Source of the DNA: Tridacna crocea
Taxonomy: Eukaryota > Mollusca > Bivalvia > Cardiida > Cardiidae
Length of the DNA: 64,000 bases
NCBI GenBank assembly: GCA_943736015.1
Contig: OX031058.1
Coordinates: 23,275,001-23,339,000 of the forward strand
Direction: 5' to 3'
Under the pieces are notes generated by a model, which ran no database searches, was not told the DNA's origin, and saw only the letters and a program-made list of their open reading frames with translations. Position numbers and translations under genes: made by a program. This document shows positions 28,136 through 57,104 of this stretch, in pieces. The stretch's first letter is position 1. Each line of letters starts with the position of its first letter.

Positions 28136-28388
28136 CTGCTTTACATTCTATTGTAATAAAATCAGTTCTCATATTTTGACACAGTGACCTAGTTTACAAG
28201 ACATTTAACCCAGTTGCCTTGTTTTTCGGAGAATATTACCCATATTCAAAAGTAACGGAGTATCATTCTGATTGAAACTGATTGAATTCGGATAATTCTG
28301 TGGCCTCTCTCAAAGCATGTAGGGCTTCTGATATTCGACCTCATGACCTAACTTTTTATCTAAAATGACATCCTGAAGAGCTACTATT

Positions 28389-28553
28389 TCTCCTAACCCT
28401 ACATAATGTCAAAATTTTAAACCTATCCAAATGAAACCATTTTTCAGATGACAAAATATATGTTACTCAAAGTCAAAATTGAAATTTGCTGTTGGACAGG
28501 TAGAAAATATCGTGGAAAAGCAGAAAATAGTAGTTTAGCAGAGTTCTCCAAAT
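28389..28553 (-). mobile_element. Eroded Mite-A
   Basis: AACCCTACATAATGTC, CAGATGACAAAATATATG and GTAGAAAATATCGTGG keep family order. The right half is lost. Confidence 0.5.
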
Positions 28554-29031
28554 GCAGAGATTTTGGAACATATTTGTCCCTTTACATTTATCTGTGAAAT
28601 TTCTCCTGTTTCTACTAGCAGTTTATGGGACAACAATGTCACCTCTCTGAATAATCCTTTTCAGAATAAAATTTATATTCACAGATATATGTCCACGATC
28701 TTGGTTCACCTCATTATCCCTGTAGATGGTGCAGATTCACAGCAGCATAAGTTCTTGGGCAAAGCACTCAAACAATCTAGCAGATCTAGACTAGTATAGA
28801 AGAAACATTTGCAAGTGTGATGTCATTATAACATGACTGAATATTATCCAAAAGTGCATGTGACACCATCCATACAAGCAATACAAAATTAAAGTTTGTC
28901 ATCAATTATAGCACTGGCTAATGTTTACAAAAAATTTGAAAGAAATGAAATTATCTGTCCTAAGGCACGTCTTTACAAAATAATGAATTGATCCAGTGTA
29001 ATTGCCAGGATTATGGAGATATTGCACTCAC
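28554..29031. other. Stretch with nothing recognised
   Basis: No convincing exon or repeat terminus. It includes GCAGATTCACAGCAGC and several short open frames without recognisable motifs. Confidence 0.3.
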
Positions 29032-29169
29032 AGGCATACCCTGTTTGTTTGGCTTAAATAGTTCGAAATTAATTTCAAGAATGTTTGCAACAACCCATTT
29101 TGCAGAAGGTTGCTCAATGAATGCAATTCGAGCAGTTAGTTTGTCTACATGAAGACAATAATTCATTAC
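29032..29169 (-). CDS. Candidate exon of an unrecognised minus-strand gene
   Basis: The minus strand reads VMNYCLHVDKLTARIAFIEQ and continues PSAKWVVANILEINFELFKP up to a consensus donor CCT/GTGAGT. The amino-acid composition is protein-like, unlike the surrounding repeats. An acceptor is proposed at ...GTAGAG but its pyrimidine tract is poor; upstream CAG sites are alternatives. A Mite-A copy begins 27 bp further upstream. I do not recognise the family. The identical exon occurs at 47,287-47,424. Confidence 0.4.
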
Positions 29170-29195
29170 CTCTACAGCAGCTGCTGCATTCATAA

Positions 29196-29435
29196 TTAAC
29201 TCTTTACCACACAACCCCTACTTTTAACGACCCAGAGAAGAAGACTTCTGAAAACATTGAAGCCACCGAGATAGAAGACTTTTAAAAACGCTGTGGAAAA
29301 AGGAGAAAAGGCTGGTTACCAGCACACAGTGTTTTCTACCCTTCCCAGACCAAATTTCAATTTTTCAGTCACTGTCATCTGCAAATGCTTTCAATTTGGA
29401 CCAGTCTTAAATTTTCTCCTGTGGTAAAGGGTTAA
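29196..29435 (+). mobile_element. Mite-A copy with shortened right arm
   Basis: TTAACTCTTTACCACAC to CTGTGGTAAAGGGTTAA. The left region is partly duplicated (GAAGACTTCTGAAAAC / GAAGACTTTTAAAAAC). The right palindrome arm is reduced to CCAGCACACAGTG. Confidence 0.75.
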
Positions 29436-29623
29436 ATTTGCTAACAGAGTGGATCAAAGCCAGACCTCACAGAACTGTGCCATCAGAATTTGCATCTACA
29501 CTGCCCACTATAATTATTCTGTATTATGCAAATGTGACATAATAATGTTTTTGACAGATCATCAGTTCCATTTTTGGTGATTCCATGCTCTTATGGTTTA
29601 TTCCATGCTAGTAGCTATACTAC

Positions 29624-29710
29624 CATTGTCTGCTCAATGTCATATTCTTCAAAGATTTGACCTGTCTTATATGACACATCACTCTCCCCGATATTCTGGA
29701 GTCTTACGCG
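29624..29710 (-). CDS. Candidate exon of an unrecognised minus-strand gene
   Basis: The minus strand encodes RVRLQNIGESDVSYK followed by TGQIFEEYDIEQTM, 29 codons in phase 0. It lies between an acceptor ...CTACTTTATAG and a donor ATG/GTAGTA. The pattern VxLxNxGExDVxYx recalls a strand pair in immunoglobulin-like ASH/HYDIN-type domains of ciliary proteins, but this is a weak resemblance from one exon. Its phase is compatible with the candidate exon at 31.0 kb. A duplicate lies at 47,879-47,965. Confidence 0.4.
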
Positions 29711-30250
29711 CTATAAAGTAGCTATGAAGAAATACTGTGTTTATCAATACATTCGAGGAGAAATGAGGCCTGTTAAAGCTCCAGATTTCTCTAAGATGCT
29801 GGTCATATATAGCTGAGTGAATTACATCTGGTAGCGTTTTATTTTTAAACCTTTACTTTATTTTGAAATTCAAAGTAATGGTTGTCGCGTAGAAAAGTAG
29901 TCTGGTTCTGTATCCAGGATGTCTAAATTAAGATGAGTATTTGTAGAATGCCATCTAGTGGGAGATAATGGCTATACTAACAAGAACATGAAGGTTAGTG
30001 CCCTTCTTAAAATATTACTACCTGCAGACAACATTCTTTCTGAAATATGGTTACAGTAAACAATATGCAGACAACACCCTCTGAAAGCATTTCGGCACAA
30101 GAAGATTTGCCCCTACAAATGATCTTACCATTAGCAATGGCTATTTCACTTCTATTCTTGTTTCAAACATGATTTCAATGTCATTAACCCACTTTTTTAT
30201 TGAAGGGATTGTTCCAAAATTGCATGATGCAAGTTTAATCCAGGAGGTAA

Positions 30251-30487
30251 TGAGTTGACCTTTCAAAAAACAATCCCAGTCTGTAACAATCCTCAGAAAG
30301 ATGGCCTTTGAAAACATTGTGAAAAAAAAAAACAAAATACTGGTGACCATCCATAATTCTTCTTTTCCAAAAAAGTTTTCAAAGATTCCAAATACATATC
30401 CATCATTTAGGCCCTGTTAATTTTGTCCTCTGCAAACGCTTTGAACTTGGACAAGTCTAAAATTTTGTCACCTGGTAAAGAGTTGAT
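30251..30487 (+). mobile_element. Mite-A copy, diverged
   Basis: GAGTTGACCTTTC to CACCTGGTAAAGAGTTGA. The palindrome is mostly destroyed by an A-run and substitutions. Confidence 0.6.
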
Positions 30488-30869
30488 AGACAAATCCCTG
30501 CCACAGGGACCAGCTGATGTCTAAACCTTATACAGAAATCTGCACTTTTAATTAATTCACTTTATTCAACTGTTCACATTTTAAAAGAGTATTTTCAAAA
30601 TGTTTGCTGCAAATTTAATCTTTACAAAATAGTCTGAGAAATCGACTATTAACCCTTAGGCTGCAACACCATATATGTCAGTAATTTATCCTCACTTACT
30701 CAAAGTACTGATTTCTGTACCTTTCTAATTTTTTTTCAAATTTAACATCGTTTTTGCTCACCGGCTGTGTACTTTTCTTTGCAAAGGAAAGAAACTGGAT
30801 CATGCTTACTCGGTATGAAGGTGCATTAATCTGGCATTCTTTTATTTCTCTGATAAGGAAGTTAAAGTA

Positions 30870-31015
30870 TGGCATGATTTGTTAAATAAGAGATAACTAT
30901 AGTCTGGTAAATAATGCCATGCCTTAACTGGAGAAATAAGAAGCTTACGAAAACAATGAAGGAAAAGGAGGAAATACTGTACCGGCAAATAGTAATTTCT
31001 GTTTTTTTCACAAAC
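30870..31015. mobile_element. Possible eroded Mite-A core
   Basis: AAAACAATGAAGGAAAAGG, then ACTGTACCGGCA and a T-rich partner resemble the palindrome. The termini are not recognisable. Confidence 0.3.
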
Positions 31016-31088
31016 CTTTTCCAGCTTGTCAGCATTATTTCCCAATACGTGGCATTCTACAAATACACATCTATCTAAATTGAGCATT
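31016..31088 (-). CDS. Candidate exon of an unrecognised minus-strand gene
   Basis: Acceptor TTCTATACCCAG and donor AAAAG/GTTTGT enclose a frame reading MLNLDRCVFVECHVLG then NNADKLEK (24 codons, one leading base). It ends in phase 0, as required to join the exon at 29,710. It is short, so the call rests on splice signals and protein-like composition. A duplicate is at 49,271-49,343. Confidence 0.35.
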
Positions 31089-31441
31089 CTGGGTATAGAA
31101 CCGAACTACTTTTCAAAACAACAACCGTTACTTTGCATTTAAAAATTAAATGAACATTTACTCAATAAAAGGCTAACGGGTGTGATTCATTCAGATATGA
31201 TCGACCAGCATGTAACCTACACAACGGTCATTTTAAGAAAGTATAACCCCTGCTTTTCCCTGGTATAAGGGGTTGATTGATGCATCATAGCAGACAGTCG
31301 TTTCTTCGAAGAATATGACATGCACATATGAGCTTGTCTGAGAACTAAAGCTGAGCTTGTCTGAGAACTAAAGCTCAATTTTGAATAAGTGATTCTAAAA
31401 TTGCTGTCGTATTTTGAAGATTCATTTATTAATTTTTTTTA

Positions 31442-31670
31442 TTAACTCTTTACCATACAATCCCGACTTTTAACGACCCTAAGAAAAAAAGCCTTTGAAA
31501 GCATTGTAGGAAAAGGAGAAAATGCTGGTAACCAGCATTTTCTCCTTTTCCCACTATGTTTTCTACCCTTTCCAAATCAAATTTTAATTTTTTAGGCACA
31601 TTAATTTTGTCGTCTGCAAATGCTTTCAATTTGGACCAGTCTATAAATTTGTCGTTTGGTAAAGAATTAA
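31442..31670 (+). mobile_element. Mite-A copy, full length
   Basis: TTAACTCTTTACCATAC to GTTTGGTAAAGAATTAA. The palindrome is intact except at its base (GCATTGTAGG against CCCACTATG). Confidence 0.85.
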
Positions 31671-32473
31671 GACATATAATAACAACTGAAGTACTTTTGC
31701 AGATGATAAAGATCAGCCTGTGCAGAATTCAATCTTGGATTCCATAGCTCATCTGATACTTTTTCAGATACATTGAAAAGGACATAAAATGACCTTGATT
31801 ATCCTGTTTCTGTTTTTTTTAACCGACTTAAAATGTAACCCTTGAAGCCATTTTCACATTTAAATTTGATTCTGCAGACAGATTATATCTCAAAACTTGC
31901 TGTCTGGTCTTGATCTAAACTGACTGCCATAATGAAACATTCCGACAAAAAAGGAGACTTGATTGCAATAACTAGTGTCTTTTTATCAGACCAGAAATGT
32001 GACCAAAATAGGTACTCTGTTTATCTAGGGCTCTATGCACAAAGCATTATGATGGCAAGAAAATTTTTCTAGAACAAGACTTGTCTACAAGTCAACAGGA
32101 AGGCAACTGGGGGGTAAGAAGACAATAACCTTAGATAAATGTGGTTTTTCTCCTAGAATTTTTTTTTTAAGACTTTTCTTGTTAACAGATTTCAATTTCA
32201 TAGGAACCCATAGTACATTTTTTAGCATTTTTTTCCTGTAAATTACAATATCAGTCTGTATTTATTTCCTTATGTTTCTTCTTACCATAGTTATGCATCA
32301 GTTATGGAAATATGAAAGAAAAGAAATCGTTCACTAAAACATACATAAAAATAACTCTGTGTCCTTGTATCAGAAGACATTATGAGAAAAGGAGCAAACT
32401 GCTTGATAAAAAGCAACAAATCCTGAGCAGATCTACCTTTATCCCATTCTGTCTTATATAAACAATTCACAAA
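31671..32473. other. Stretch with nothing firmly recognised
   Basis: AT-rich. On minus near 32,370-32,450 a protein-like frame GRSAQDLLLFIKQF is visible, but no pair of good splice sites supports it. Confidence 0.3.
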
Positions 32474-35411
32474 CAAGAGGACCATGATGGTCCTATATCG
32501 CTCACCTGAGTACTAAGCTGTCAAATCAAACTTGTGACTCCTGGGCAGGGCCAGTTTTGACTCCATGGGCATCCTCATAAGAAACTTGGTAGAGGTCCAC
32601 AAGGCAATGCTACTTACAAAATATCAAAGCTCTACACCTTCTAGTTTCAGAGAAGTAGAATTTTAAAGTTTCCCTCTTTATTTCTATTTTTTAACCTTCT
32701 GACCCCCGGGGCGGACCAGTTTTGACCCTAGGGATATCATATGAACAATCTTGGTAGAGGTCCACTAGGAGATGCTACATACCAAATATCAAAGCTCTAC
32801 ATCTTCTAGTTTCAGAGAAGAAGAAATTTAAAGTTTTCCTTCTTGGTTCCTATGTTTCAAACTTGTGACCCCCGGGGCAGGGCCAGTTTTGACCCAAGGG
32901 GCATCATATGAACAATCTTGGTAGAGGTTCACTAGGAGATGCTACATACCACATATAAATTAGCTCTGCACCTTCTAGTTTCAGAGGAAAAGAATTTTAA
33001 AGTATTCTTTTTTTGTTCCTATGTTTCAAACTTGTGACCCCCCGGGGCAGGGCCAGTTTTGACCTGAGGGACATCATATGAAGAATCTTGGTAGAGGTCC
33101 ACTAGTACATGCTACATACCAAATATCAAAGGTCTGCACCTTCTAGTTTCAGAGATGAAGAATTTTAAAGTTTTCCTTCTTTCTTCCTATGTTTCAAACT
33201 TTTGACCCCCGGGGCGGGGCCAGTTTAAACCCTAGGGACATCATATGAACAATCTTGGTAGAGGTCCACAAGGAGATGCTATATACCAAATATCAAAGCT
33301 CTGCACCTTCTACTTCCAGAGAAGAAGAATTTTAAAGTTTTCCTTATTTGTTCCTATGTTTCAAACTTGTGACCCCAGGGCGGGGCCTGTTTTGACCCCA
33401 GGGACATCATTTGAACAATCTTGGTAGAGGTCTACTAGGAGATGCTACAACCAAATATCAAAGCTCTGTACCTTCTAGTTTCTGAGAAGAAGAATTTTAA
33501 AGTTTTCCTTCTTTGTTCCTATGTTTCAAACTTTTGACCCCCTGGGTGGGGCCAGTTTACACCCTAGGGACATCATACTAACAATCTTGGTAGAGGTCCA
33601 CAAGGAGATGCTACATACCAAATATCAAAGCTCTGCACCTTCTACTTTCAGAGAAGAAGAATTTTAAAGTTTTCCTTATTTGTTCCTATGTTTCAAACTT
33701 GTGAACCCCCGGGCGGGGCCCGTTTTGACCCCAGGGACATCATTTGAACAATCTTGGTAGAGGGTCACTAGAAGATGCTACATACCAAATATCAAAGCTC
33801 TGCACCTTCTAGTTTCAGAGAAGAAGAATTTTAAATTTTTTCTCGTTTTTCCTATGTTTCAAACTTGTGACCCCTGGGGCAGGGCCAATTTTGACCTATG
33901 ACATATGAACAATCTTGGTAGAGGTACACTAGGAAATGTTACATACCAAATTTCAAAACTCTACGCCTTCTAGTTTCAGAGAAGAAGATTTTCAAAGATT
34001 TTGCTATTTATTCCTTTTGGTTGCCATGGCAACCAGAGTTATGTGTGGAATTCAATCTCTTGAACAACTTTGATAGAGCTTCACCCAAGGAACATTCCTG
34101 CCAAGTTTCATCAAGATTGGCCAGGCAGTTTAGGAGGAGAAGAAATTGTGGACGACGCACGACGGACGCCGGACAAAGCAAAGGATTTTCTTCCTTTCCT
34201 GTGGGGCCGAATTTCGGCCCCATTCCCAATTGCAAAAAGTGTATTTTTTTCCCAATTTCATAAAATAAAATTCCAAATTAGACGCTAGAAAAAGAAAAAG
34301 AAAATAGTCTGATGTATCAGCCAGGGTTTTACCCGACACACAAATTTGCGGGCACTGACCAAAGCTCAAGCAGGAAATCGACAGATATCGTATTTTAGGT
34401 ATGAAAGTATTTGGGGGCAATTAAGTATAGACTGCGTCATAATTTCAACCGAATTATGCGTTGACTGGATTATCTGGCTGTAAACCGTTCTACCTACAAA
34501 ATACAGACGACCGTTAATTTCTCGGCAACTGCCACACATATATTGCAGCAAAGCAGAGTTTCGTTAGACAAAAAAGAAGAACCCAGCTCCTAAATTGACA
34601 GTCCTGAATCAGGAATAAGTTGGGAAAAATACCCGGCCGAATCTAGAGTAAGACCACAAGATTTTTTTACTCCCCCAGATCTCGATCGGTTATCTTGAGC
34701 GGTTCATAGAAGCAAATTTCAAGTGTGAAGTTTCCTCTCTCCAATTGATTTTTAACAATTTCTTTTCAATTCTGTAATAGGTCTACCACAGAAAATGACA
34801 ATTTTTTAATCTTTCTTTATATGTCAAAGCACTCAAAAAATCAATTTCAAAGATAAATCGTCATGTGAAAAAACCACGAAAACCCATGACAATACAGTTG
34901 TCAAACAAGACTTCAGCCGATCAGAGGCTCCTCAATCTGTCGTATCAAGCCTTGATAAGGACCTTTATCAGCTGACTTGCATACACACAGTATAATAAAA
35001 TAAAACAAGAAATGATTTCTCTATTAATTCACCAGAAAAACAAATATCTTTATTTAAATATCCTACCTAGCAGGATCCGTGTTGGGGGGGGGGGGGGGGG
35101 GGGGGGGAAGAAAGGGGGGAGTTGAGGTCCTTACAGCTTAGACACTTGAACTAGTATGACAGACAAAAGAGAGTGATTCAGTAGTTCATTTAATGCCTGA
35201 ATATGTTAATTATAAGGTTAAATGTGTTCCAAACTTTACATTTTTTGTCAATATTATTTTCCCAATTTTGACATTTTGTCGATGATTTTTTTCCGAATTT
35301 GGCCAGGGGGCCTTTTCCCAAAATGTCTGGATAAAGCCCTGCAAAGGGTGATCACAAAAGCTCACCATGAGCACTTCGTGCTCAGGTGCACTTCGTGCTC
35401 AGGTGAGCTAA
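32474..35411 (+). mobile_element. Hairpin-capped tandem-repeat element, type 2
   Basis: 5' cap AGGACCATGATGGTCCT with GCTCACCTGAG. Ten or so ~150-bp monomers follow (GGGGCAGGGCCAGTTTTG, GAGGTCCACTAGGAG, CTTCTAGTTTCAGAG). Then come GGTTGCCATGGCAACC, CCAAGTTTCATCAAG, an ACGACGGACGCCGG tract and the 3' cap GAGCACTTCGTGCTC (partly duplicated) with AGGTGAGCTAA. The 3' part is split by a ~1.16-kb insertion. The terminal hairpin plus CTAA is Helitron-like; no Rep/helicase is present. Confidence 0.7.
34180..35343. mobile_element. Insertion within the type 2 element tail
   Basis: Interrupts the tail between GGACAAAG and CAAAGGGTGATCAC, so CAAAG may be the target duplication. The interior shares GAAAACCCATGAC, CAGAGGCTCC-like and poly-G landmarks, in order, with the arms of the 6.8-8.4 kb foldback. 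It contains G×24 at 35,084-35,107. No ORF of note. Confidence 0.45.
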
Positions 35412-35484
35412 AAACAATCAGCTTTCCTATGAAAAGATTCTTGTCTAAACAGACGGCTCAAAAGGGTACAAGGCTTGATACCTA

Positions 35485-35720
35485 AACATTGCTGGTTCTG
35501 TTCCCTGCTCAGCCAAATTCTTTCAAAGAATTGCATATAGTTATTGCAATCAGATTCATTCAGTGGCTTAACAGCGTACGATAATGTTTACTTTATTTCA
35601 GGGTGAGCAGCAAGTGGCTTTGACAAAACACTGTAAACATACTGCTGACAGAAATTCCATGATAGCATAGATGCATTGCAGTTGCTTTGTGCAGGCAGTC
35701 TTCCGATGAAAGAAAATTAT
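35485..35720 (+). repeat. SINE-2 fragment
   Basis: CTGCTCAGCCAAATTCTTTC, CAGATTCATTC, GGGTGAGCAGCAAGTGGC and GATAGCATAGATGCA keep SINE-2 order. The head is missing. Confidence 0.5.
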
Positions 35721-35931
35721 CGAACAATTTGAAGCCCCTGTAAAGTCAAATATAGGTAATTTTTGTCATTAATGACTCAGATATGTAACTGATAACCCAT
35801 CACAACACACATAAATAAGATCTAAGAAAACCAAAACTTGTCAATTTCTGCATTGATTGCCATGATTTACACATGCGAAAATGCATGGAGAAGCCCATTG
35901 ATTTCATGGAGCAGGTGTTCTTTAACCCTTT

Positions 35932-36420
35932 ATCACACAATCCTGGCTTTTCACGACCCTGAGAGAGAAAACCTTTGAAAACATTGTGGGTAAAGTAGAA
36001 AATGCTGTTTTTCCCACAGCTTTCAACCCTTTCCAAATTAAATTTCAATTTTGTAGATTCACATTTATTTTTTCATCTGCAAAAGCTTTCAATTTGGACA
36101 AGTCAAAAAAGTTTGTCGTTTGAGAAAGTTGTTGGTTGGTTGGTTGTATTGGGGTTTAACGCCACTTTAACAGCTAAGGTCATATCATGGCAGTCGGTGA
36201 CGCACATGTGTTTCCTGGCTTTTTCATACCGGTACTAACACTACTTTCTTTCCAAAGCCACCGATTACTTTTTTCTTACATGCTTCAGCAGAGGTGAGAG
36301 GCGAAAATACGCCGGAAAGAAAGTTAGCCTCAACCGGGTACCGAACTCACAACCACCCGGTCATGAGTCCGACACGCTCACCACTGAGCCACCCGGGCGG
36401 GCCGTTTGAGAAAGAGTTAA
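35932..36420 (+). mobile_element. Mite-A copy split by a SINE-1
   Basis: TTAACCCTTTATCACACAATCC at left and CGTTTGAGAAAGAGTTAA at right. The palindrome is collapsed to AAAATGCTGTTTTTCCC. The right terminus is interrupted at 36,129. Confidence 0.8.
36129..36402 (-). mobile_element. SINE-1 inserted in Mite-A, with target duplication
   Basis: On minus: GCCCGCCCGGGTGGCTCAG head, B-box GTGAGTTCGGTACC, body as at 3.95 kb, and an (AACC)n tail. The 12-bp direct repeat CGTTTGAGAAAG flanks it exactly (36,117-36,128 and 36,403-36,414). Confidence 0.9.
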
Positions 36421-36442
36421 AATAGTTTATTAAACTGTACCA

Positions 36443-36660
36443 CTTAATTGCTTTTACCAATTATGTATACCACAAAATTTTAGAATGGTTCCAATTGAAA
36501 GCATTTTGCAGATGACAAATTGAACATGGCTTAAATGACAAGAGTGGACTGTGAAAGGATAGAAAACACTTCGGGAAAGGAGAAGCATTTTCTCCTTTTT
36601 CCAAAATAGTTTAAAAAGTCTGTTTGCCAAAGTCATTAAAAGTTGTGATAAAGGGGTTAA
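36443..36660 (-). mobile_element. Mite-A copy, palindrome centre lost
   Basis: TACCACAAAATTTTAG and CCAATTGAAAGCATTT at the left, GTGATAAAGGGGTTAA at the right. The palindrome is reduced to GGAGAAGCATTTTCTCC. Confidence 0.65.
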
Positions 36661-36754
36661 AGACATAATATTCATGATATTATAACTTACTTACATATTC
36701 TGATCTTAGTCCTCACTTTAACAATCTTTGATACTAGCTATCCTGAGGAAGTAT

Positions 36755-36980
36755 TTAACCCTTTACTCCATAGATCCTCATTTCCGCATTGCTTGTAAAA
36801 GCCTTTGGAAAACATTGTGGCAAAAGGTGAAATTGCTCGTGACGAGAAATTTCATCTTTAGCCACAATGTTTTCTATGCTATCAAAAGGGGTCATATACA
36901 CATAAGAAACGGCTTCATCCTTGCTGTTATTAAGCATCAATTAGAGATACCTTAGAATTGCCTTATGGGTAAAAGGTTAA
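36755..36980 (+). mobile_element. Mite-B copy, full length
   Basis: TTAACCCTTTACTCCATAG to ATGGGTAAAAGGTTAA. The palindrome is slightly mismatched in the right arm (GAGAAATTTCATCTTTAGCC). Confidence 0.85.
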
Positions 36981-37271
36981 AAAGATTTTTTAAAAGATTC
37001 TTGAAACAGGAGAAACTATTATGCATTGTTTTCTTTTACTGCAAAGTGTTCTACCTTTATAGTGGTCAAAATGCATCCATATGAGCTACAGTTAATTAAT
37101 TTTTGTACTGGTAAAAATTATAAGAATTTTCAAACTTTAAGTGTCATATTTTTTTCTGGTAAATAATTGTACAAAGTCTATTTACCATTAAGAATCCAAA
37201 GTGTGACAGTTTTCTATATAAGTCCTACCTGTGAATGGGGCAATAGCACTTTGCATGCACAGCAAATGCAA

Positions 37272-37548
37272 GGGCGGATCCAGAGGGGGGAACCGGGGGT
37301 CCGGACCCCCCCCTGAAATTTTCACAAAATGTTGTTATGAAAATTAATTTAAAAAAAATAAATTCGAAATGTGGAGAGCTCCTCATGGTTAAAACTGGAA
37401 ACGTTGTCTTTTTCTTGTAAACGACTAACATCCGCTGAAATCCGGAAATCAAAGTATCATACAATAAGACGAGTGCGTTTTCGGTGGGAACCCCCCCCCC
37501 CCTTGAGAACGGTGGGACCCCCCCTAAGAAAAATATCTGGATCCGCGC
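37272..37548 (+). mobile_element. GGCGGATCC-type MITE
   Basis: GGGCGGATCCAGAGGGGGG and CCCCCCTAAG ... ATCTGGATCCGCGC are inverted ends. The interior matches the copy at 15.8 kb. It contains a C-run that differs in length in copy B. Confidence 0.8.
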
Positions 37549-37948
37549 ATGAAATGAAATGAACACTTTACAATCAAAAAGATAAAAAAACCAAGTAATA
37601 CAATTTTACCATATTTCAACAAAAATATCTCAAAGACTGAAATGCTACAGACTAAGATCAGTATGCAGCATTTTATATTGCTTGATCTTGGTCTACAGTC
37701 TGTCTGTTTAAGCATCCTACAATGCAAACAACATGCAGAGAAATTCTATTGATTTTCAAGAGAAGTCTGTGAAAGTATTATTACATTGGGAAGACACTGC
37801 ATAAAGGTCAAAAGTCAGTTTCCAACACCAATTTTCTTCTACAGCTGAGGCATGTTCAGTATATTGTCACTAAATTACAGTTCTCTAAAATTTTTATTTT
37901 CTCCTGTATCTAACAGCAAAATGTTGCACATGCCAAATAAAGTGTGAC

Positions 37949-38174
37949 CTAACCCTTTACCACACAATCCCGTGTTAACAAACCCTCGGAGGAAGCCATT
38001 TAAAAACATTGTAGGAAAAGGAGAAATTGCTGGTTACCAGCATTTTCTCCTTTTCCCACAATGTTTTCTAATCTAGCAAAGACAAATTTCACCAATTGAC
38101 CTACATGTAAATTGTCGTCTTGAAACTCTTTCAGTTTAGACCAGTTCAAATTTTCGTTGAGTGGTAAAGAGTAA
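37949..38174 (+). mobile_element. Mite-A copy
   Basis: CTAACCCTTTACCACAC to GAGTGGTAAAGAGTAAA. The palindrome GCTGGTTACCAGC has near-perfect arms; the TTAA ends have mutated. Confidence 0.8.
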
Positions 38175-38913
38175 ATACATCACCAACTTTGACTTCGAAA
38201 GGGGTGAACACATTTTGCTAATGGGAGCCAATGATGATGAACAGCATTTTCTGAATTTAAATTTACCACAACGTTTTATAAACACTCTTTCTTATTGAAC
38301 TAGTATAATATGATTTTAAGATATAGTGAATAAAAAGAGTTTTGCAATGTCCAATTCAATAATAACCAAATTAAATATTTTATTCCAAAGAGACCCAAAA
38401 AGGCCTTGTTTTTATCCACATAAATATTCATGTTGGGATCAACGTATCACCAAAATACCATAATATCACCGAAACACCAAAATACCCCGTTTTTTTCCAT
38501 TATGTCAAATAACTGACATAAGTGCAAGAATCTTTTTTTTTAACACAAACTTTAAGCTGTAGCGAATTTTTTTTCTATGTACAGTTTTCCTATGTACAGT
38601 TCACTGGAGTGCAGCGGCCACAGATCGGCGGAGTAGCGTTTATTCGCCACTTACTGCTCGCCGCTAGAATGGTCAAAGGGGCATTTAAATCCGTTCACTG
38701 CTAGCTGCTGCACTCATCACAGAGGGGATTTCCAAGAATTACCTTCCTTTTGTATCAAGAAAACACATGCAAAAAAAGAACAAATTGCACTGAAACACAT
38801 GCTAAGTTGACTGTTTTTTACATTAGATTGACATTAGAAAACCGTTGTTATCTCCCTTGGAAGGGTTTCTTCCCTTGAAGAGTAACTACTTCCGGTGAGG
38901 TAATATTTCAAAA

Positions 38914-39499: not shown

Positions 39500-40071
39500 G
39501 TAAGAGATTTATTGACTTTATTTATTTAAAGTTCACATTGATGAATGGGGGATCAAAACAGCCCATTTCTGAAATGGTCTACTTTGTGATGATTAAAGTT
39601 GAATATGATATGCTGCTTTGAACAATGCTGTCATATATATCACTGCAGAGCTCACATGTATTTCCTCAGTTCAACCAGTACTAGGTTAGGGCTCTGAAGG
39701 GTCTTTGCAGAAGGATATTTGTACCTGGATCCTCCAGGTCATGAGCCATGCAGGACCCTCCATAATTACTTAAAATTCATTGAAGTTCCTTCCGTCATTT
39801 TGTTTGTGAACTTATTTCTTACTTATAATGTGAATCGAAACTTTAAAGCAGAGTTTTTGTATGAGAATATCATTTTGTTGGTGCAAAGTTCATAATGGCC
39901 ACAAAAAAAAGTTAAAGAAAATCAGCAGTATACTTTTATCATAGTTTTATTTCACAAAATATGGGTGATTAACTTTGTTTTGCTTGAAGCAGGCACTTCT
40001 GAGACTTAGTAGAAAATGAGTAATTTGTAAATAAATCTACTTTTGCCACATTTTTGACACCTTAACTCTAC

Positions 40072-40289
40072 CAAACGACAAAATTGTTGATTGGTCCAAA
40101 TTGAAAGCATTTGCAGATGACAAAATAAATGTGAATCAAATAATGAAATTCGAGTTGGGAGGAGTAGAAAACATTGTCGGGAAAGGAGAAAATGCTGGTA
40201 ACCAGCATTTTCTCCTTTTACTACATTGTTTTCAAAAGCTTTCTTTCTCAGGGTCATTAAAAGTCGGAATTGTGTGATAAAGAGGTAAT
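40072..40289 (-). mobile_element. Mite-A in the nuclease intron
   Basis: TTAACTCTACCAAACGAC, CAAATTGAAAGCATTTGC, a palindrome around GCTGGTAACCAGC, and right end GTGTGATAAAGAGG. Confidence 0.8.
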
Positions 40290-46317: not shown

Positions 46318-46643
46318 CGGAAGTCGGCGTGCTTACTTCACGCGAAAGAGTAAACAAGGGAGGTAATAATTCAAGGGAGATAACAACAGTTTTCGGAAAG
46401 GCCTATTGTAATAAAATCAGTTCTCATATTTTGACACAGTGACCTAGTTTACAAGACATTTAACCCAGTTGCCTTGTTTTTCGGAGAATATTACCCATAT
46501 TCAAAAGTAACGGAGTATCATTCTGATTGAAACTGATTGAATTCGGATAATTCTGTGGCCTCTCTCAAAGCATGTAGGGCTTCTGATATTCGACCTCATG
46601 ACCTAACTTTTTATCTAAAATGACATCCTGAAGAGCTACTATT

Positions 46644-46808
46644 TCTCCTAACCCTACATAATGTCAAAATTTTAAACCTATCCAAATGAAACCATTTTTC
46701 AGATGACAAAATATATGTTACTCAAAGTCAAAATTGAAATTTGCTGTTGGACAGGTAGAAAATATCGTGGAAAAGCAGAAAATAGTAGTTTAGCAGAGTT
46801 CTCCAAAT
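46644..46808 (-). mobile_element. Eroded Mite-A (copy B)
   Basis: Duplicate of the remnant at 28,389. Confidence 0.5.
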
Positions 46809-47286
46809 GCAGAGATTTTGGAACATATTTGTCCCTTTACATTTATCTGTGAAATTTCTCCTGTTTCTACTAGCAGTTTATGGGACAACAATGTCACCTC
46901 TCTGAATAATCCTTTTCAGAATAAAATTTATATTCACAGATATATGTCCACGATCTTGGTTCACCTCATTATCCCTGTAGATGGTGCAGATTCACAGCAG
47001 CATAAGTTCTTGGGCAAAGCACTCAAACAATCTAGCAGATCTAGACTAGTATAGAAGAAACATTTGCAAGTGTGATGTCATTATAACATGACTGAATATT
47101 ATCCAAAAGTGCATGTGACACCATCCATACAAGCAATACAAAATTAAAGTTTGTCATCAATTATAGCACTGGCTAATGTTTACAAAAAATTTGAAAGAAA
47201 TGAAATTATCTGTCCTAAGGCACGTCTTTACAAAATAATGAATTGATCCAGTGTAATTGCCAGGATTATGGAGATATTGCACTCAC

Positions 47287-47424
47287 AGGCATACCCTGTT
47301 TGTTTGGCTTAAATAGTTCGAAATTAATTTCAAGAATGTTTGCAACAACCCATTTTGCAGAAGGTTGCTCAATGAATGCAATTCGAGCAGTTAGTTTGTC
47401 TACATGAAGACAATAATTCATTAC
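47287..47424 (-). CDS. Candidate exon, duplicate (VMNYCLHVDK...)
   Basis: Same sequence as the exon at 29,032, including the CCT/GTGAGT donor. If the gene is real, this exon is present twice in the same orientation. Confidence 0.4.
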
Positions 47425-47450
47425 CTCTACAGCAGCTGCTGCATTCATAA

Positions 47451-47690
47451 TTAACTCTTTACCACACAACCCCTACTTTTAACGACCCAGAGAAGAAGAC
47501 TTCTGAAAACATTGAAGCCACCGAGATAGAAGACTTTTAAAAACGCTGTGGAAAAAGGAGAAAAGGCTGGTTACCAGCACACAGTGTTTTCTACCCTTCC
47601 CAGACCAAATTTCAATTTTTCAGTCACTGTCATCTGCAAATGCTTTCAATTTGGACCAGTCTTAAATTTTCTCCTGTGGTAAAGGGTTAA
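47451..47690 (+). mobile_element. Mite-A (copy B)
   Basis: Duplicate of the copy at 29,196, with the same shortened right arm. Confidence 0.75.
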
Positions 47691-47878
47691 ATTTGCTAAC
47701 AGAGTGGATCAAAGCCAGACCTCACAGAACTGTGCCATCAGAATTTGCATCTACACTGCCCACTATAATTATTCTGTATTATGCAAATGTGACATAATAA
47801 TGTTTTTGACAGATCATCAGTTCCATTTTTGGTGATTCCATGCTCTTATGGTTTATTCCATGCTAGTAGCTATACTAC

Positions 47879-47965
47879 CATTGTCTGCTCAATGTCATAT
47901 TCTTCAAAGATTTGACCTGTCTTATATGACACATCACTCTCCCCGATATTCTGGAGTCTTACGCG
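47879..47965 (-). CDS. Candidate exon, duplicate (RVRLQNIGESDV...)
   Basis: Same sequence and splice signals as the exon at 29,624. Confidence 0.4.
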
Positions 47966-48505
47966 CTATAAAGTAGCTATGAAGAAATACTGTGTTTATC
48001 AATACATTCGAGGAGAAATGAGGCCTGTTAAAGCTCCAGATTTCTCTAAGATGCTGGTCATATATAGCTGAGTGAATTACATCTGGTAGCGTTTTATTTT
48101 TAAACCTTTACTTTATTTTGAAATTCAAAGTAATGGTTGTCGCGTAGAAAAGTAGTCTGGTTCTGTATCCAGGATGTCTAAATTAAGATGAGTATTTGTA
48201 GAATGCCATCTAGTGGGAGATAATGGCTATACTAACAAGAACATGAAGGTTAGTGCCCTTCTTAAAATATTACTACCTGCAGACAACATTCTTTCTGAAA
48301 TATGGTTACAGTAAACAATATGCAGACAACACCCTCTGAAAGCATTTCGGCACAAGAAGATTTGCCCCTACAAATGATCTTACCATTAGCAATGGCTATT
48401 TCACTTCTATTCTTGTTTCAAACATGATTTCAATGTCATTAACCCACTTTTTTATTGAAGGGATTGTTCCAAAATTGCATGATGCAAGTTTAATCCAGGA
48501 GGTAA

Positions 48506-48742
48506 TGAGTTGACCTTTCAAAAAACAATCCCAGTCTGTAACAATCCTCAGAAAGATGGCCTTTGAAAACATTGTGAAAAAAAAAAACAAAATACTGGTG
48601 ACCATCCATAATTCTTCTTTTCCAAAAAAGTTTTCAAAGATTCCAAATACATATCCATCATTTAGGCCCTGTTAATTTTGTCCTCTGCAAACGCTTTGAA
48701 CTTGGACAAGTCTAAAATTTTGTCACCTGGTAAAGAGTTGAT
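48506..48742 (+). mobile_element. Mite-A (copy B)
   Basis: Duplicate of the diverged copy at 30,251. Confidence 0.6.
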
Positions 48743-49270
48743 AGACAAATCCCTGCCACAGGGACCAGCTGATGTCTAAACCTTATACAGAAATCTGCAC
48801 TTTTAATTAATTCACTTTATTCAACTGTTCACATTTTAAAAGAGTATTTTCAAAATGTTTGCTGCAAATTTAATCTTTACAAAATAGTCTGAGAAATCGA
48901 CTATTAACCCTTAGGCTGCAACACCATATATGTCAGTAATTTATCCTCACTTACTCAAAGTACTGATTTCTGTACCTTTCTAATTTTTTTTCAAATTTAA
49001 CATCGTTTTTGCTCACCGGCTGTGTACTTTTCTTTGCAAAGGAAAGAAACTGGATCATGCTTACTCGGTATGAAGGTGCATTAATCTGGCATTCTTTTAT
49101 TTCTCTGATAAGGAAGTTAAAGTATGGCATGATTTGTTAAATAAGAGATAACTATAGTCTGGTAAATAATGCCATGCCTTAACTGGAGAAATAAGAAGCT
49201 TACGAAAACAATGAAGGAAAAGGAGGAAATACTGTACCGGCAAATAGTAATTTCTGTTTTTTTCACAAAC

Positions 49271-49343
49271 CTTTTCCAGCTTGTCAGCATTATTTCCCAA
49301 TACGTGGCATTCTACAAATACACATCTATCTAAATTGAGCATT
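49271..49343 (-). CDS. Candidate exon, duplicate (MLNLDRCVFVEC...)
   Basis: Same sequence and splice signals as the exon at 31,016. Confidence 0.35.
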
Positions 49344-49696
49344 CTGGGTATAGAACCGAACTACTTTTCAAAACAACAACCGTTACTTTGCATTTAAAAA
49401 TTAAATGAACATTTACTCAATAAAAGGCTAACGGGTGTGATTCATTCAGATATGATCGACCAGCATGTAACCTACACAACGGTCATTTTAAGAAAGTATA
49501 ACCCCTGCTTTTCCCTGGTATAAGGGGTTGATTGATGCATCATAGCAGACAGTCGTTTCTTCGAAGAATATGACATGCACATATGAGCTTGTCTGAGAAC
49601 TAAAGCTGAGCTTGTCTGAGAACTAAAGCTCAATTTTGAATAAGTGATTCTAAAATTGCTGTCGTATTTTGAAGATTCATTTATTAATTTTTTTTA

Positions 49697-49925
49697 TTAA
49701 CTCTTTACCATACAATCCCGACTTTTAACGACCCTAAGAAAAAAAGCCTTTGAAAGCATTGTAGGAAAAGGAGAAAATGCTGGTAACCAGCATTTTCTCC
49801 TTTTCCCACTATGTTTTCTACCCTTTCCAAATCAAATTTTAATTTTTTAGGCACATTAATTTTGTCGTCTGCAAATGCTTTCAATTTGGACCAGTCTATA
49901 AATTTGTCGTTTGGTAAAGAATTAA
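49697..49925 (+). mobile_element. Mite-A (copy B)
   Basis: Duplicate of the full-length copy at 31,442. Confidence 0.85.
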
Positions 49926-50728
49926 GACATATAATAACAACTGAAGTACTTTTGCAGATGATAAAGATCAGCCTGTGCAGAATTCAATCTTGGATTCCAT
50001 AGCTCATCTGATACTTTTTCAGATACATTGAAAAGGACATAAAATGACCTTGATTATCCTGTTTCTGTTTTTTTTAACCGACTTAAAATGTAACCCTTGA
50101 AGCCATTTTCACATTTAAATTTGATTCTGCAGACAGATTATATCTCAAAACTTGCTGTCTGGTCTTGATCTAAACTGACTGCCATAATGAAACATTCCGA
50201 CAAAAAAGGAGACTTGATTGCAATAACTAGTGTCTTTTTATCAGACCAGAAATGTGACCAAAATAGGTACTCTGTTTATCTAGGGCTCTATGCACAAAGC
50301 ATTATGATGGCAAGAAAATTTTTCTAGAACAAGACTTGTCTACAAGTCAACAGGAAGGCAACTGGGGGGTAAGAAGACAATAACCTTAGATAAATGTGGT
50401 TTTTCTCCTAGAATTTTTTTTTTAAGACTTTTCTTGTTAACAGATTTCAATTTCATAGGAACCCATAGTACATTTTTTAGCATTTTTTTCCTGTAAATTA
50501 CAATATCAGTCTGTATTTATTTCCTTATGTTTCTTCTTACCATAGTTATGCATCAGTTATGGAAATATGAAAGAAAAGAAATCGTTCACTAAAACATACA
50601 TAAAAATAACTCTGTGTCCTTGTATCAGAAGACATTATGAGAAAAGGAGCAAACTGCTTGATAAAAAGCAACAAATCCTGAGCAGATCTACCTTTATCCC
50701 ATTCTGTCTTATATAAACAATTCACAAA

Positions 50729-53665
50729 CAAGAGGACCATGATGGTCCTATATCGCTCACCTGAGTACTAAGCTGTCAAATCAAACTTGTGACTCCTGGG
50801 CAGGGCCAGTTTTGACTCCATGGGCATCCTCATAAGAAACTTGGTAGAGGTCCACAAGGCAATGCTACTTACAAAATATCAAAGCTCTACACCTTCTAGT
50901 TTCAGAGAAGTAGAATTTTAAAGTTTCCCTCTTTATTTCTATTTTTTAACCTTCTGACCCCCGGGGCGGACCAGTTTTGACCCTAGGGATATCATATGAA
51001 CAATCTTGGTAGAGGTCCACTAGGAGATGCTACATACCAAATATCAAAGCTCTACATCTTCTAGTTTCAGAGAAGAAGAAATTTAAAGTTTTCCTTCTTG
51101 GTTCCTATGTTTCAAACTTGTGACCCCCGGGGCAGGGCCAGTTTTGACCCAAGGGGCATCATATGAACAATCTTGGTAGAGGTTCACTAGGAGATGCTAC
51201 ATACCACATATAAATTAGCTCTGCACCTTCTAGTTTCAGAGGAAAAGAATTTTAAAGTATTCTTTTTTTGTTCCTATGTTTCAAACTTGTGACCCCCCGG
51301 GGCAGGGCCAGTTTTGACCTGAGGGACATCATATGAAGAATCTTGGTAGAGGTCCACTAGTACATGCTACATACCAAATATCAAAGGTCTGCACCTTCTA
51401 GTTTCAGAGATGAAGAATTTTAAAGTTTTCCTTCTTTCTTCCTATGTTTCAAACTTTTGACCCCCGGGGCGGGGCCAGTTTAAACCCTAGGGACATCATA
51501 TGAACAATCTTGGTAGAGGTCCACAAGGAGATGCTATATACCAAATATCAAAGCTCTGCACCTTCTACTTCCAGAGAAGAAGAATTTTAAAGTTTTCCTT
51601 ATTTGTTCCTATGTTTCAAACTTGTGACCCCAGGGCGGGGCCTGTTTTGACCCCAGGGACATCATTTGAACAATCTTGGTAGAGGTCTACTAGGAGATGC
51701 TACAACCAAATATCAAAGCTCTGTACCTTCTAGTTTCTGAGAAGAAGAATTTTAAAGTTTTCCTTCTTTGTTCCTATGTTTCAAACTTTTGACCCCCTGG
51801 GTGGGGCCAGTTTACACCCTAGGGACATCATACTAACAATCTTGGTAGAGGTCCACAAGGAGATGCTACATACCAAATATCAAAGCTCTGCACCTTCTAC
51901 TTTCAGAGAAGAAGAATTTTAAAGTTTTCCTTATTTGTTCCTATGTTTCAAACTTGTGAACCCCCGGGCGGGGCCCGTTTTGACCCCAGGGACATCATTT
52001 GAACAATCTTGGTAGAGGGTCACTAGAAGATGCTACATACCAAATATCAAAGCTCTGCACCTTCTAGTTTCAGAGAAGAAGAATTTTAAATTTTTTCTCG
52101 TTTTTCCTATGTTTCAAACTTGTGACCCCTGGGGCAGGGCCAATTTTGACCTATGACATATGAACAATCTTGGTAGAGGTACACTAGGAAATGTTACATA
52201 CCAAATTTCAAAACTCTACGCCTTCTAGTTTCAGAGAAGAAGATTTTCAAAGATTTTGCTATTTATTCCTTTTGGTTGCCATGGCAACCAGAGTTATGTG
52301 TGGAATTCAATCTCTTGAACAACTTTGATAGAGCTTCACCCAAGGAACATTCCTGCCAAGTTTCATCAAGATTGGCCAGGCAGTTTAGGAGGAGAAGAAA
52401 TTGTGGACGACGCACGACGGACGCCGGACAAAGCAAAGGATTTTCTTCCTTTCCTGTGGGGCCGAATTTCGGCCCCATTCCCAATTGCAAAAAGTGTATT
52501 TTTTTCCCAATTTCATAAAATAAAATTCCAAATTAGACGCTAGAAAAAGAAAAAGAAAATAGTCTGATGTATCAGCCAGGGTTTTACCCGACACACAAAT
52601 TTGCGGGCACTGACCAAAGCTCAAGCAGGAAATCGACAGATATCGTATTTTAGGTATGAAAGTATTTGGGGGCAATTAAGTATAGACTGCGTCATAATTT
52701 CAACCGAATTATGCGTTGACTGGATTATCTGGCTGTAAACCGTTCTACCTACAAAATACAGACGACCGTTAATTTCTCGGCAACTGCCACACATATATTG
52801 CAGCAAAGCAGAGTTTCGTTAGACAAAAAAGAAGAACCCAGCTCCTAAATTGACAGTCCTGAATCAGGAATAAGTTGGGAAAAATACCCGGCCGAATCTA
52901 GAGTAAGACCACAAGATTTTTTTACTCCCCCAGATCTCGATCGGTTATCTTGAGCGGTTCATAGAAGCAAATTTCAAGTGTGAAGTTTCCTCTCTCCAAT
53001 TGATTTTTAACAATTTCTTTTCAATTCTGTAATAGGTCTACCACAGAAAATGACAATTTTTTAATCTTTCTTTATATGTCAAAGCACTCAAAAAATCAAT
53101 TTCAAAGATAAATCGTCATGTGAAAAAACCACGAAAACCCATGACAATACAGTTGTCAAACAAGACTTCAGCCGATCAGAGGCTCCTCAATCTGTCGTAT
53201 CAAGCCTTGATAAGGACCTTTATCAGCTGACTTGCATACACACAGTATAATAAAATAAAACAAGAAATGATTTCTCTATTAATTCACCAGAAAAACAAAT
53301 ATCTTTATTTAAATATCCTACCTAGCAGGATCCGTGTTGGGGGGGGGGGGGGGGGGGGGGGAAGAAAGGGGGGAGTTGAGGTCCTTACAGCTTAGACACT
53401 TGAACTAGTATGACAGACAAAAGAGAGTGATTCAGTAGTTCATTTAATGCCTGAATATGTTAATTATAAGGTTAAATGTGTTCCAAACTTTACATTTTTT
53501 GTCAATATTATTTTCCCAATTTTGACATTTTGTCGATGATTTTTTTCCGAATTTGGCCAGGGGGCCTTTTCCCAAAATGTCTGGATAAAGCCCTGCAAAG
53601 GGTGATCACAAAAGCTCACCATGAGCACTTCGTGCTCAGGTGCACTTCGTGCTCAGGTGAGCTAA
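50729..53665 (+). mobile_element. Hairpin-capped element, type 2 (copy B)
   Basis: Duplicate of the element at 32,474, including both caps and the insertion in its tail (52,435-53,597). Confidence 0.7.
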
Positions 53666-53738
53666 AAACAATCAGCTTTCCTATGAAAAGATTCTTGTCT
53701 AAACAGACGGCTCAAAAGGGTACAAGGCTTGATACCTA

Positions 53739-53974
53739 AACATTGCTGGTTCTGTTCCCTGCTCAGCCAAATTCTTTCAAAGAATTGCATATAGTTATTG
53801 CAATCAGATTCATTCAGTGGCTTAACAGCGTACGATAATGTTTACTTTATTTCAGGGTGAGCAGCAAGTGGCTTTGACAAAACACTGTAAACATACTGCT
53901 GACAGAAATTCCATGATAGCATAGATGCATTGCAGTTGCTTTGTGCAGGCAGTCTTCCGATGAAAGAAAATTAT
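53739..53974 (+). repeat. SINE-2 fragment (copy B)
   Basis: Duplicate of the fragment at 35,485. Confidence 0.5.
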
Positions 53975-54185
53975 CGAACAATTTGAAGCCCCTGTAAAGT
54001 CAAATATAGGTAATTTTTGTCATTAATGACTCAGATATGTAACTGATAACCCATCACAACACACATAAATAAGATCTAAGAAAACCAAAACTTGTCAATT
54101 TCTGCATTGATTGCCATGATTTACACATGCGAAAATGCATGGAGAAGCCCATTGATTTCATGGAGCAGGTGTTCTTTAACCCTTT

Positions 54186-54674
54186 ATCACACAATCCTGG
54201 CTTTTCACGACCCTGAGAGAGAAAACCTTTGAAAACATTGTGGGTAAAGTAGAAAATGCTGTTTTTCCCACAGCTTTCAACCCTTTCCAAATTAAATTTC
54301 AATTTTGTAGATTCACATTTATTTTTTCATCTGCAAAAGCTTTCAATTTGGACAAGTCAAAAAAGTTTGTCGTTTGAGAAAGTTGTTGGTTGGTTGGTTG
54401 TATTGGGGTTTAACGCCACTTTAACAGCTAAGGTCATATCATGGCAGTCGGTGACGCACATGTGTTTCCTGGCTTTTTCATACCGGTACTAACACTACTT
54501 TCTTTCCAAAGCCACCGATTACTTTTTTCTTACATGCTTCAGCAGAGGTGAGAGGCGAAAATACGCCGGAAAGAAAGTTAGCCTCAACCGGGTACCGAAC
54601 TCACAACCACCCGGTCATGAGTCCGACACGCTCACCACTGAGCCACCCGGGCGGGCCGTTTGAGAAAGAGTTAA
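54186..54674 (+). mobile_element. Mite-A split by SINE-1 (copy B)
   Basis: Duplicate of 35,932-36,420. The SINE occupies 54,383-54,656 and keeps its CGTTTGAGAAAG target repeats. Confidence 0.85.
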
Positions 54675-54696
54675 AATAGTTTATTAAACTGTACCA

Positions 54697-54914
54697 CTTA
54701 ATTGCTTTTACCAATTATGTATACCACAAAATTTTAGAATGGTTCCAATTGAAAGCATTTTGCAGATGACAAATTGAACATGGCTTAAATGACAAGAGTG
54801 GACTGTGAAAGGATAGAAAACACTTCGGGAAAGGAGAAGCATTTTCTCCTTTTTCCAAAATAGTTTAAAAAGTCTGTTTGCCAAAGTCATTAAAAGTTGT
54901 GATAAAGGGGTTAA
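54697..54914 (-). mobile_element. Mite-A (copy B)
   Basis: Duplicate of the copy at 36,443. Confidence 0.65.
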
Positions 54915-55008
54915 AGACATAATATTCATGATATTATAACTTACTTACATATTCTGATCTTAGTCCTCACTTTAACAATCTTTGATACTAGCTATCCTGA
55001 GGAAGTAT

Positions 55009-55234
55009 TTAACCCTTTACTCCATAGATCCTCATTTCCGCATTGCTTGTAAAAGCCTTTGGAAAACATTGTGGCAAAAGGTGAAATTGCTCGTGACGAG
55101 AAATTTCATCTTTAGCCACAATGTTTTCTATGCTATCAAAAGGGGTCATATACACATAAGAAACGGCTTCATCCTTGCTGTTATTAAGCATCAATTAGAG
55201 ATACCTTAGAATTGCCTTATGGGTAAAAGGTTAA
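55009..55234 (+). mobile_element. Mite-B (copy B)
   Basis: Duplicate of the copy at 36,755. Confidence 0.85.
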
Positions 55235-55525
55235 AAAGATTTTTTAAAAGATTCTTGAAACAGGAGAAACTATTATGCATTGTTTTCTTTTACTGCAAAG
55301 TGTTCTACCTTTATAGTGGTCAAAATGCATCCATATGAGCTACAGTTAATTAATTTTTGTACTGGTAAAAATTATAAGAATTTTCAAACTTTAAGTGTCA
55401 TATTTTTTTCTGGTAAATAATTGTACAAAGTCTATTTACCATTAAGAATCCAAAGTGTGACAGTTTTCTATATAAGTCCTACCTGTGAATGGGGCAATAG
55501 CACTTTGCATGCACAGCAAATGCAA

Positions 55526-55812
55526 GGGTGGATCCAGAGGGGGGAACCGGGGGTCCGGACCCCCCCCTGAAATTTTCACAAAATGTTGTTATGAAAATTA
55601 ATTTAAAAAAAATAAATTCGAAATGTGGAGAGCTCCTCATGGTTAAAACTGGAAACGTTGTCTTTTTCTTGTAAACGACTAACATCCGCTGAAATCCGGA
55701 AATCAAAGTATCATACAATAAGACGAGTGCGTTTTCGGTGGGAACCCCCCCCCCCCCCCCCCCCCCTTGAGAACGGTGGGACCCCCCCTAAGAAAAATAT
55801 CTGGATCCGCGC
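55526..55812 (+). mobile_element. GGCGGATCC-type MITE (copy B)
   Basis: Duplicate of 37,272-37,548. Its first line reads GGGTGGATCC, and its C-run is longer. Confidence 0.8.
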
Positions 55813-56212
55813 ATGAAATGAAATGAACACTTTACAATCAAAAAGATAAAAAAACCAAGTAATACAATTTTACCATATTTCAACAAAAATATCTCAAAGA
55901 CTGAAATGCTACAGACTAAGATCAGTATGCAGCATTTTATATTGCTTGATCTTGGTCTACAGTCTGTCTGTTTAAGCATCCTATAATGCAAACAACATGC
56001 AGAGAAATTCTATTGATTTTCAAGAGAAGTCTGTGAAAGTATTATTACATTGGGAAGACACTGCATAAAGGTCAAAAGTCAGTTTCCAACACCAATTTTC
56101 TTCTACAGCTGAGGCATGTTCAGTATATTGTCACTAAATTACAGTTCTCTAAAATTTTTATTTTCTCCTGTATCTAACAGCAAAATGTTGCACATGCCAA
56201 ATAAAGTGTGAC

Positions 56213-56438
56213 CTAACCCTTTACCACACAATCCCGTGTTAACAAACCCTCGGAGGAAGCCATTTAAAAACATTGTAGGAAAAGGAGAAATTGCTGGTTA
56301 CCAGCATTTTCTCCTTTTCCCACAATGTTTTCTAATCTAGCAAAGACAAATTTCACCAATTGACCTACATGTAAATTGTCGTCTTGAAACTCTTTCAGTT
56401 TAGACCAGTTCAAATTTTCGTTGAGTGGTAAAGAGTAA
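56213..56438 (+). mobile_element. Mite-A (copy B)
   Basis: Duplicate of the copy at 37,949. Confidence 0.8.
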
Positions 56439-57104
56439 ATACATCACCAACTTTGACTTCGAAAGGGGTGAACACATTTTGCTAATGGGAGCCAATGATG
56501 ATGAACAGCATTTTCTGAATTTAAATTTACCACAACGTTTTATAAACACTCTTTCTTATTGAACTAGTATAATATGATTTTAAGATATAGTGAATAAAAA
56601 GAGTTTTGCAATGTCCAATTCAATAATAACCAAATTAAATATTTTATTCCAAAGAGACCCAAAAAGGCCTTGTTTTTATCCACATAAATATTCATGTTGG
56701 GATCAACGTATCACCAAAATACCATAATATCACCGAAACACCAAAATACCCCGTTTTTTTCCATTATGTCAAATAACTGACATAAGTGCAAGAATCTTTT
56801 TTTTTAACACAAACTTTAAGCTGTAGCGAATTTTTTTTCTATGTACAGTTTTCCTATGTACAGTTCACTGGAGTGCAGCGGCCACAGATCGGCGGAGTAG
56901 CGTTTATTCGCCACTTACTGCTCGCCGCTAGAATGGTCAAAGGGGCATTTAAATCCGTTCACTGCTAGCTGCTGCACTCATCACAGAGGGGATTTCCAAG
57001 AATTACCTTCCTTTTGTATCAAGAAAACACATGCAAAAAAAGAACGAATTGCACTGAAACACATGCTAAGTTGACTGTTTTTTACATTAGATTGACATTA
57101 GAAA

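Follow-up and report, generated by a model that had tools for sequence, protein, structure and literature searches.

Introduction

In Caenorhabditis elegans, failed strand annealing followed by end joining yields tandem duplications whose junctions carry microhomology and whose size runs from ~100 bp to 10 kb, with a median of ~1 kb (PMC8654963). In maize, Ac reversed-ends duplications and re-replication insertions are direct duplications that have a transposon at their junction but lack one at an outer breakpoint (PMC3744419, PMC4270019). Recent tandem duplications associated with transposon sequence are also known from insects: the Paris sex-ratio duplication of Drosophila simulans has a hAT element in its junction region (PMC3276153), and the Anopheles ace-1 duplication has a Harbinger transposase locus at one breakpoint (PMC5137868). 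Here we describe a locus of the bivalve Tridacna crocea (a window of 64 kb, positions 23,275,001 to 23,339,000 of contig OX031058.1) at which two nearly identical direct copies of a 10.7-kb segment, X, lie on either side of a single ISL2EU-type DNA transposon. We propose, at a probability of about 0.52, that the left transposon end was broken, that its repair copied X from a chromosome without the transposon, and that the repair was closed by microhomology end joining.

The T. crocea locus shares features with each of these systems and departs from each. With the helq-1 duplications of C. elegans it has in common a tandem copied tract, junction microhomology and a size of up to ~10 kb; there, however, annealing fails without the helicase, whereas here the proposed cause of failure is a template without the transposon, and the part of that paper dealing with the junctions mentions no transposon, in contrast to the one at the junction here (PMC8654963). 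The maize Ac duplications have a transposon end and an 8-bp target duplication at the breakpoint and involve two nearby elements, whereas the T. crocea locus has one element with a trimmed end (PMC3744419, PMC4270019). Three of the maize re-replication composite insertions carry microhomologies of 3, 4 and 9 bp, and another carries none (PMC4270019). The insect cases differ in size and in proposed origin, Paris being a 37.5-kb duplication attributed to duplication-dependent strand annealing (PMC3276153) and ace-1 a 203-kb duplication attributed to recombination between repeats (PMC5137868). The exact combination seen here was not noticed in the open-access literature surveyed, which does not in itself establish its absence.

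P-element hybrid element insertion is predicted to duplicate the flank around one element when homologues or sisters participate, a product shared with the T. crocea locus. In that process the transposase joins the end to the target, whereas the join here resembles end joining. The process is named in the maize work as well (PMC3744419).

Results

The structure of the locus was read from assembled sequence alone (T. crocea assembly, 1,048,827,098 bases, or 1.05 Gb). Self-comparison of the window confirms a 10.7-kb direct duplication with a single transposon between the copies, as an earlier note on this DNA had reported, and bears out its placement of the transposon at the duplication junction. 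The dominant repeat pair, X1 (28148-38840) and X2 (46403-57104), is 99.87% identical across 10.7 kb. Three substitutions separate the copies (37275/55529, 37720/55984 and 38782/57046), and two homopolymers differ in length, a G run by 1 base (35084) and a C run by 10 bases (55745-55754). The copy number of X was tested assembly-wide with a left-end query made of the first 903 bases of X and 98 bases of the left flank (LF); scoring covered 40 of the 1666 first-look candidates, with 43 matches listed. Among the matches listed, the first 903 bases of X match at 100% in two places, both inside the window, and the remaining 41 matches are short repeats of 72-80% identity. For the 98 LF bases, the scored matches include nothing near-identical elsewhere, although they do include one 60-base match of 80% on C2.

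The ends of the transposon can be read from its other copies. Four other full copies were compared. Those at C6, C7 and C9 are 7584-7604 bp long and 99.3-99.4% identical to the window copy, gaps excluded. The copy at C5 (C5:22021570-22032395) is 10,826 bp long, with ~4.9 kb extra near position 1568 and ~1.6 kb gone after 3169. The transposon family is young. All four copies have the termini AGGCCTTTCCGAAAAC... and ...GTTTTCGGAAAGGCCT, flanked by CCCTAT and ATTCTA (C7), TTCTAT and ATAGGG (C6), ATCTAT and ATTCGG (C9), and CTATA and ATAAG (C5). The target duplication is AT in three of the four (C6, C7 and C9) and 3 bp (ATA) rather than 2 bp at C5. A genome-wide pattern search allowing at most 2 mismatches found 14 terminal-repeat ends: the four full-copy pairs, two pairs that bound short elements on C16, the right end in the window, and an isolated left end at C6:39363821. 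The outer ten bases, AGGCCTTTCC, are kept in all eight other left ends read (C5, C6:25.4 Mb, C7, C9, C6:39.36 Mb, C1, C16:23.89 Mb and C6:37.17 Mb). The short elements, C16:1922218-1922355 (138 bp) and C16:23894099-23894473 (375 bp), are bounded by the family's terminal repeats and are probably non-autonomous derivatives of it; the lone left end consists of ~135 bp of transposon followed by unrelated sequence.

Once the termini of the other copies are known, the right junction of the window takes on a different form from that first described (a slash marks borders below). The earlier note had placed an 8-bp spacer, GGAAAGGC, beyond the right terminus and had seen no ordinary target duplication. 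Since the other copies end in the same way, the spacer is transposon, the right terminal repeat is complete, and the right end, ...GTTTTCGGAAAGGCCT/ATTGTAATAA, is a normal insertion into a normal target (CTAT/TG). The empty target predicted from this end, ...CTATTGTAATAA, is identical to the border between LF and X1, ACATTCTATTGTAATAA, and stands without a scar at 28143-28156 as ACATTCTATTGTAA. X starts exactly at the transposon target and not at a random place; its homology is visible already from 28148 because CT is common to the transposon end. The supposed 10.7-kb "target duplication" around the transposon gives way to a normal target at the right end and the empty version of that target at the left border of X1. 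We also considered GGAAAGGC as templated filler from the transposon interior, where it occurs at 39096, followed by GTATTG; this is ruled out by the other copies, whose true right end is GGAAAGGCCT.

The left junction is of another kind. The left transposon end begins GAAAACCG, and its outer ten bases are gone. X1 ends ...ATTAGAAA and the right flank (RF) goes on TGCATC, so GAAA is common to the end of X and the transposon. The sharing of GAAA had been noted before; the tetranucleotide lies, however, in the interior of the left terminal repeat and not at a true terminus. Microhomology of at least 4 bp arose in 1.9% of 200,000 simulated random joins. From left to right, the locus has the form of an empty allele (LF-X1) and then of an occupied one, which begins ten bases inside the transposon (transposon-X2-RF). 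On the simplest reading, the transposon would have inserted first, into a single-copy X, and X would have been duplicated later through a join between its right end and the left end of the transposon. The earlier observation is thus partly confirmed: its outline holds, whereas its account of the junctions does not. Coordinates are collected in Table 1.

Table 1. Features of the duplicated locus, in window coordinates.
Feature	Position	Strand	Remarks
Left flank (LF)	28100..28149		Joins X1 as empty, unscarred target ACATTCTAT/TG
X1, first copy	28150..38840	+	Last four bases, GAAA, common to the transposon
GAAA, 4-bp microhomology	38837..38840		X1 end and interior of left terminal repeat
ISL2EU-type DNA transposon	38837..46404		Left terminal repeat without outer 10 bp (AGGCCTTTCC); right one complete
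SAP-domain frame	38899..39369	+	PF02037 4.9e-07
YqaJ / viral alkaline exonuclease frame	40652..41860	+	PF09588 7e-18, PF01771 2.2e-11
Transposase frame, HTH_Tnp_4 + DDE_Tnp_4	44201..45466	-	PF13613 1.2e-14, PF13359 1e-44
THAP-domain frame	45931..46332	-	PF05485 1.1e-09
Outer end of right terminal repeat, GGAAAGGCCT	46395..46404		Earlier "8-bp spacer" GGAAAGGC (46395-46402) plus CT
X2, second copy	46405..57104	+	Taken to be where X originally lay, next to the right transposon end
Right flank (RF)	57105..57154		Runs on from X2 (GAAA/TGCATC)

The transposon matches the ISL2EU group of the PHIS superfamily, whose gene content comprises THAP, DDE and YqaJ (PMC4482050). It has THAP, HTH and DDE transposase domains, with THAP and DDE in separate frames that would be joined as exons, the THAP frame presumably being an exon of the transposase gene. 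It also has a second gene with a YqaJ exonuclease domain, and the AT target duplication of the group, as found in the three copies above and in agreement with the empty site in the window. At ~7.6 kb it is longer than the ISL2EU average of ~4.8 kb, and its ends are AGG in a target T/AT/(T or A), compared with GG and A/AT/T in ISL2EU (PMC4482050). Its ends read AGGCC against the usual GG start, the first A depending on how the target duplication is drawn. The portion of PMC4482050 drawn on here makes no mention of SAP for the group.

A dispersed repeat of ~230 bp occurs in many copies across the window (1225-1454, 2138-2366, 5307-5534, 14641-14869, 31442-31671 in X, 43921-44150 and elsewhere); the copy at 43921, inside the transposon, contains a GGAGAAAATGCTGGT/ACCAGCATTTTCTCC inverted repeat at its centre. 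Arrays resembling satellite DNA, built of units of 155-167 bp, lie at 32526-34015 inside X1 (X2 counterpart 50781-52270), 58465-59964, 22166-23247 and 10788-11826. Seven of the ten listed X1 frames of at least 80 aa, and one RF frame, have no Pfam match at E 0.01. At 8424-10505, BLAST aligns a tandem pair of 1,039-bp copies, 99.8% identical and 4 bp apart, each starting CCCCTGCGAAAAGTAG and ending in its inverse; this looks like a short inverted-repeat element, two side by side.

Discussion

The junctions suggest the following course of events. An ISL2EU-type transposon would have inserted normally at CTAT/TG, directly left of X, giving the order LF-transposon-X-RF. A double-strand break would then have formed at its left end, perhaps by one-end transposase cleavage, with the loss of 10 bp. 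The left-flank end would have invaded a homologue or sister lacking the transposon and copied ~10.7 kb of X, presumably by synthesis-dependent strand annealing. Because this empty template carries no transposon sequence, the new strand could not have annealed to the other broken end. Released, it would have been joined through GAAA to the trimmed transposon end by microhomology end joining, leaving LF-X1-transposon-X2-RF with the transposon shortened. The proposal accounts for each border in turn. The left border would be scarless because copying used a template without the transposon; the join would lie at the transposon end because the break arose there; trimming and microhomology would be present because the ends were joined; and there would be duplication instead of clean repair because a strand from the empty partner shares nothing with the transposon end. 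GAAA at the duplication junction is the microhomology that failed annealing followed by end joining would leave. What the sequence itself displays is a left border in the state of an empty site, a right transposon end that is complete, a left one that is trimmed and joined by microhomology, and two copies of X that are nearly identical; the cutting agent, the template (the homologue, or a sister having lost the element) and the enzymes we infer.

Several observations weigh against this proposal. The tract of 10.7 kb is at or just above the published C. elegans range (PMC8654963). A survey of gene-capturing animal transposons found breakpoints leaning to the element interior, which were read as transposition-independent, unlike the breakpoint here, at the element end (PMC8277862). 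All three substitutions between X1 and X2 fall within the final 14.6% of X, which the simple model does not predict (P ~0.006 for clustering at either end, chosen post hoc; 0.054 from the range alone); the cluster may mark a template change or may mean nothing. Large flanking direct repeats were not seen at the transposon copies C5, C6, C7 and C9 within ~9-12 kb per side, beyond which longer duplications would escape, and the window is the sole locus with a flank duplication among the five loci compared. The longest direct pair around the other full copies, among at most 15 best-scoring pairs per copy, is 750 bp at 78%. Finally, merged haplotypes would give almost identical sequence.

Such an assembly artefact, in which the empty (LF-X) and occupied (transposon-X-RF) haplotypes of one diploid were joined in series, was soundly listed as an option in the earlier note; it is the main rival, and we consider it unlikely. 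The locus amounts to precisely one empty allele plus one occupied one, the near-identity of X1 and X2 could be allelic, and near the transposon end, where the haplotypes diverge, an occupied-haplotype contig might plausibly begin. Yet no gap letters mark the join (the window has 0 N), and a 4-bp microhomology lying 10 bp within the transposon is not predicted by contig joining. Moreover, no near-identical direct repeats of at least 1 kb were seen in the ~118.6 kb around and including the four other full copies, and three substitutions in 10.7 kb would be few for two alleles of an outbred animal.

Template switching during replication, which the earlier note had listed as an option, is a sound suggestion, and the junctions are compatible with both repair and template switching at the left end. 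By microhomology-mediated break-induced replication or fork stalling and template switching (MMBIR/FoSTeS), replication on the empty chromatid would have broken off where X meets RF and resumed, through GAAA, at the occupied chromatid's left transposon end. The product is the same, the 4-bp microhomology is there, and a stickleback tandem duplication with 4-8 bp of microhomology has been so interpreted (PMC12776057, preprint). By itself, however, this route leaves the landing within 10 bp of the transposon terminus unexplained, whereas a break made there explains it, and as a full account of the locus we regard it as rather improbable.

Alternative transposition, whether by reversed ends or by hybrid-element insertion, was the other route put forward in the earlier note, and the left junction lends it no support. 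This route would have used the left transposon end and lost the 10 bp later. It does yield duplications with no transposon at one breakpoint (PMC3744419), and there is an AT dinucleotide overlapping the X end, which says little because AT begins at 8.5% of window positions. Maize breakpoints, however, bear target duplications at transposon termini (PMC3744419). Reversed-ends transposition predicts a complete terminus at the duplication junction; here ten bases are lacking and the join is by microhomology, so that a second deletion would be needed and the route is very doubtful. A mixed route of transposase plus repair may be possible, since maize re-replication products show microhomology joins (PMC4270019). 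The earlier interpretation is, then, partly supported.

Joining between homologues of two independent breaks, one at the left transposon end of the occupied chromosome and one at the X/RF border of the empty one, would give an identical product and join, but it requires a second break that nothing explains and is highly improbable. Unequal recombination between two X-flanking transposons with subsequent loss of the outer copies is the usual kind of reading where transposons lie at duplication breakpoints (e.g. PMC5137868), but neither outer border holds a copy or remnant of the transposon and at the left one the empty site is perfect, while a duplication that came first would require insertion exactly at the existing junction, a large coincidence that would leave two full ends; both are scarcely credible.

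The component processes of the repair proposed here are already known; that they come together at a single natural locus makes this a variant. With its junctions corrected, what seemed an odd 10.7-kb target duplication becomes an apparent repair scar. The empty target survives at one border and the occupied target at the other, so that a single chromosome would record the order of events. If confirmed by reads, the locus would be a natural, base-resolved case of this kind. It is a speculative and on balance unlikely generalization that a transposon insertion present on one chromosome alone acts as a trap for homologous repair, leaving its flank duplicated in tandem on either side of the transposon, and that ISL2EU elements, with a lambda-type exonuclease of their own, might favour this route and thereby generate such duplications repeatedly. 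The scar nevertheless offers a signature that can be searched for: an empty site, an intact far end, and a near end trimmed and joined with microhomology. If the proposal is true, this signature could reveal how frequently, in wild animals, the DNA around cut-and-paste transposons becomes duplicated by their action through routes other than alternative transposition.

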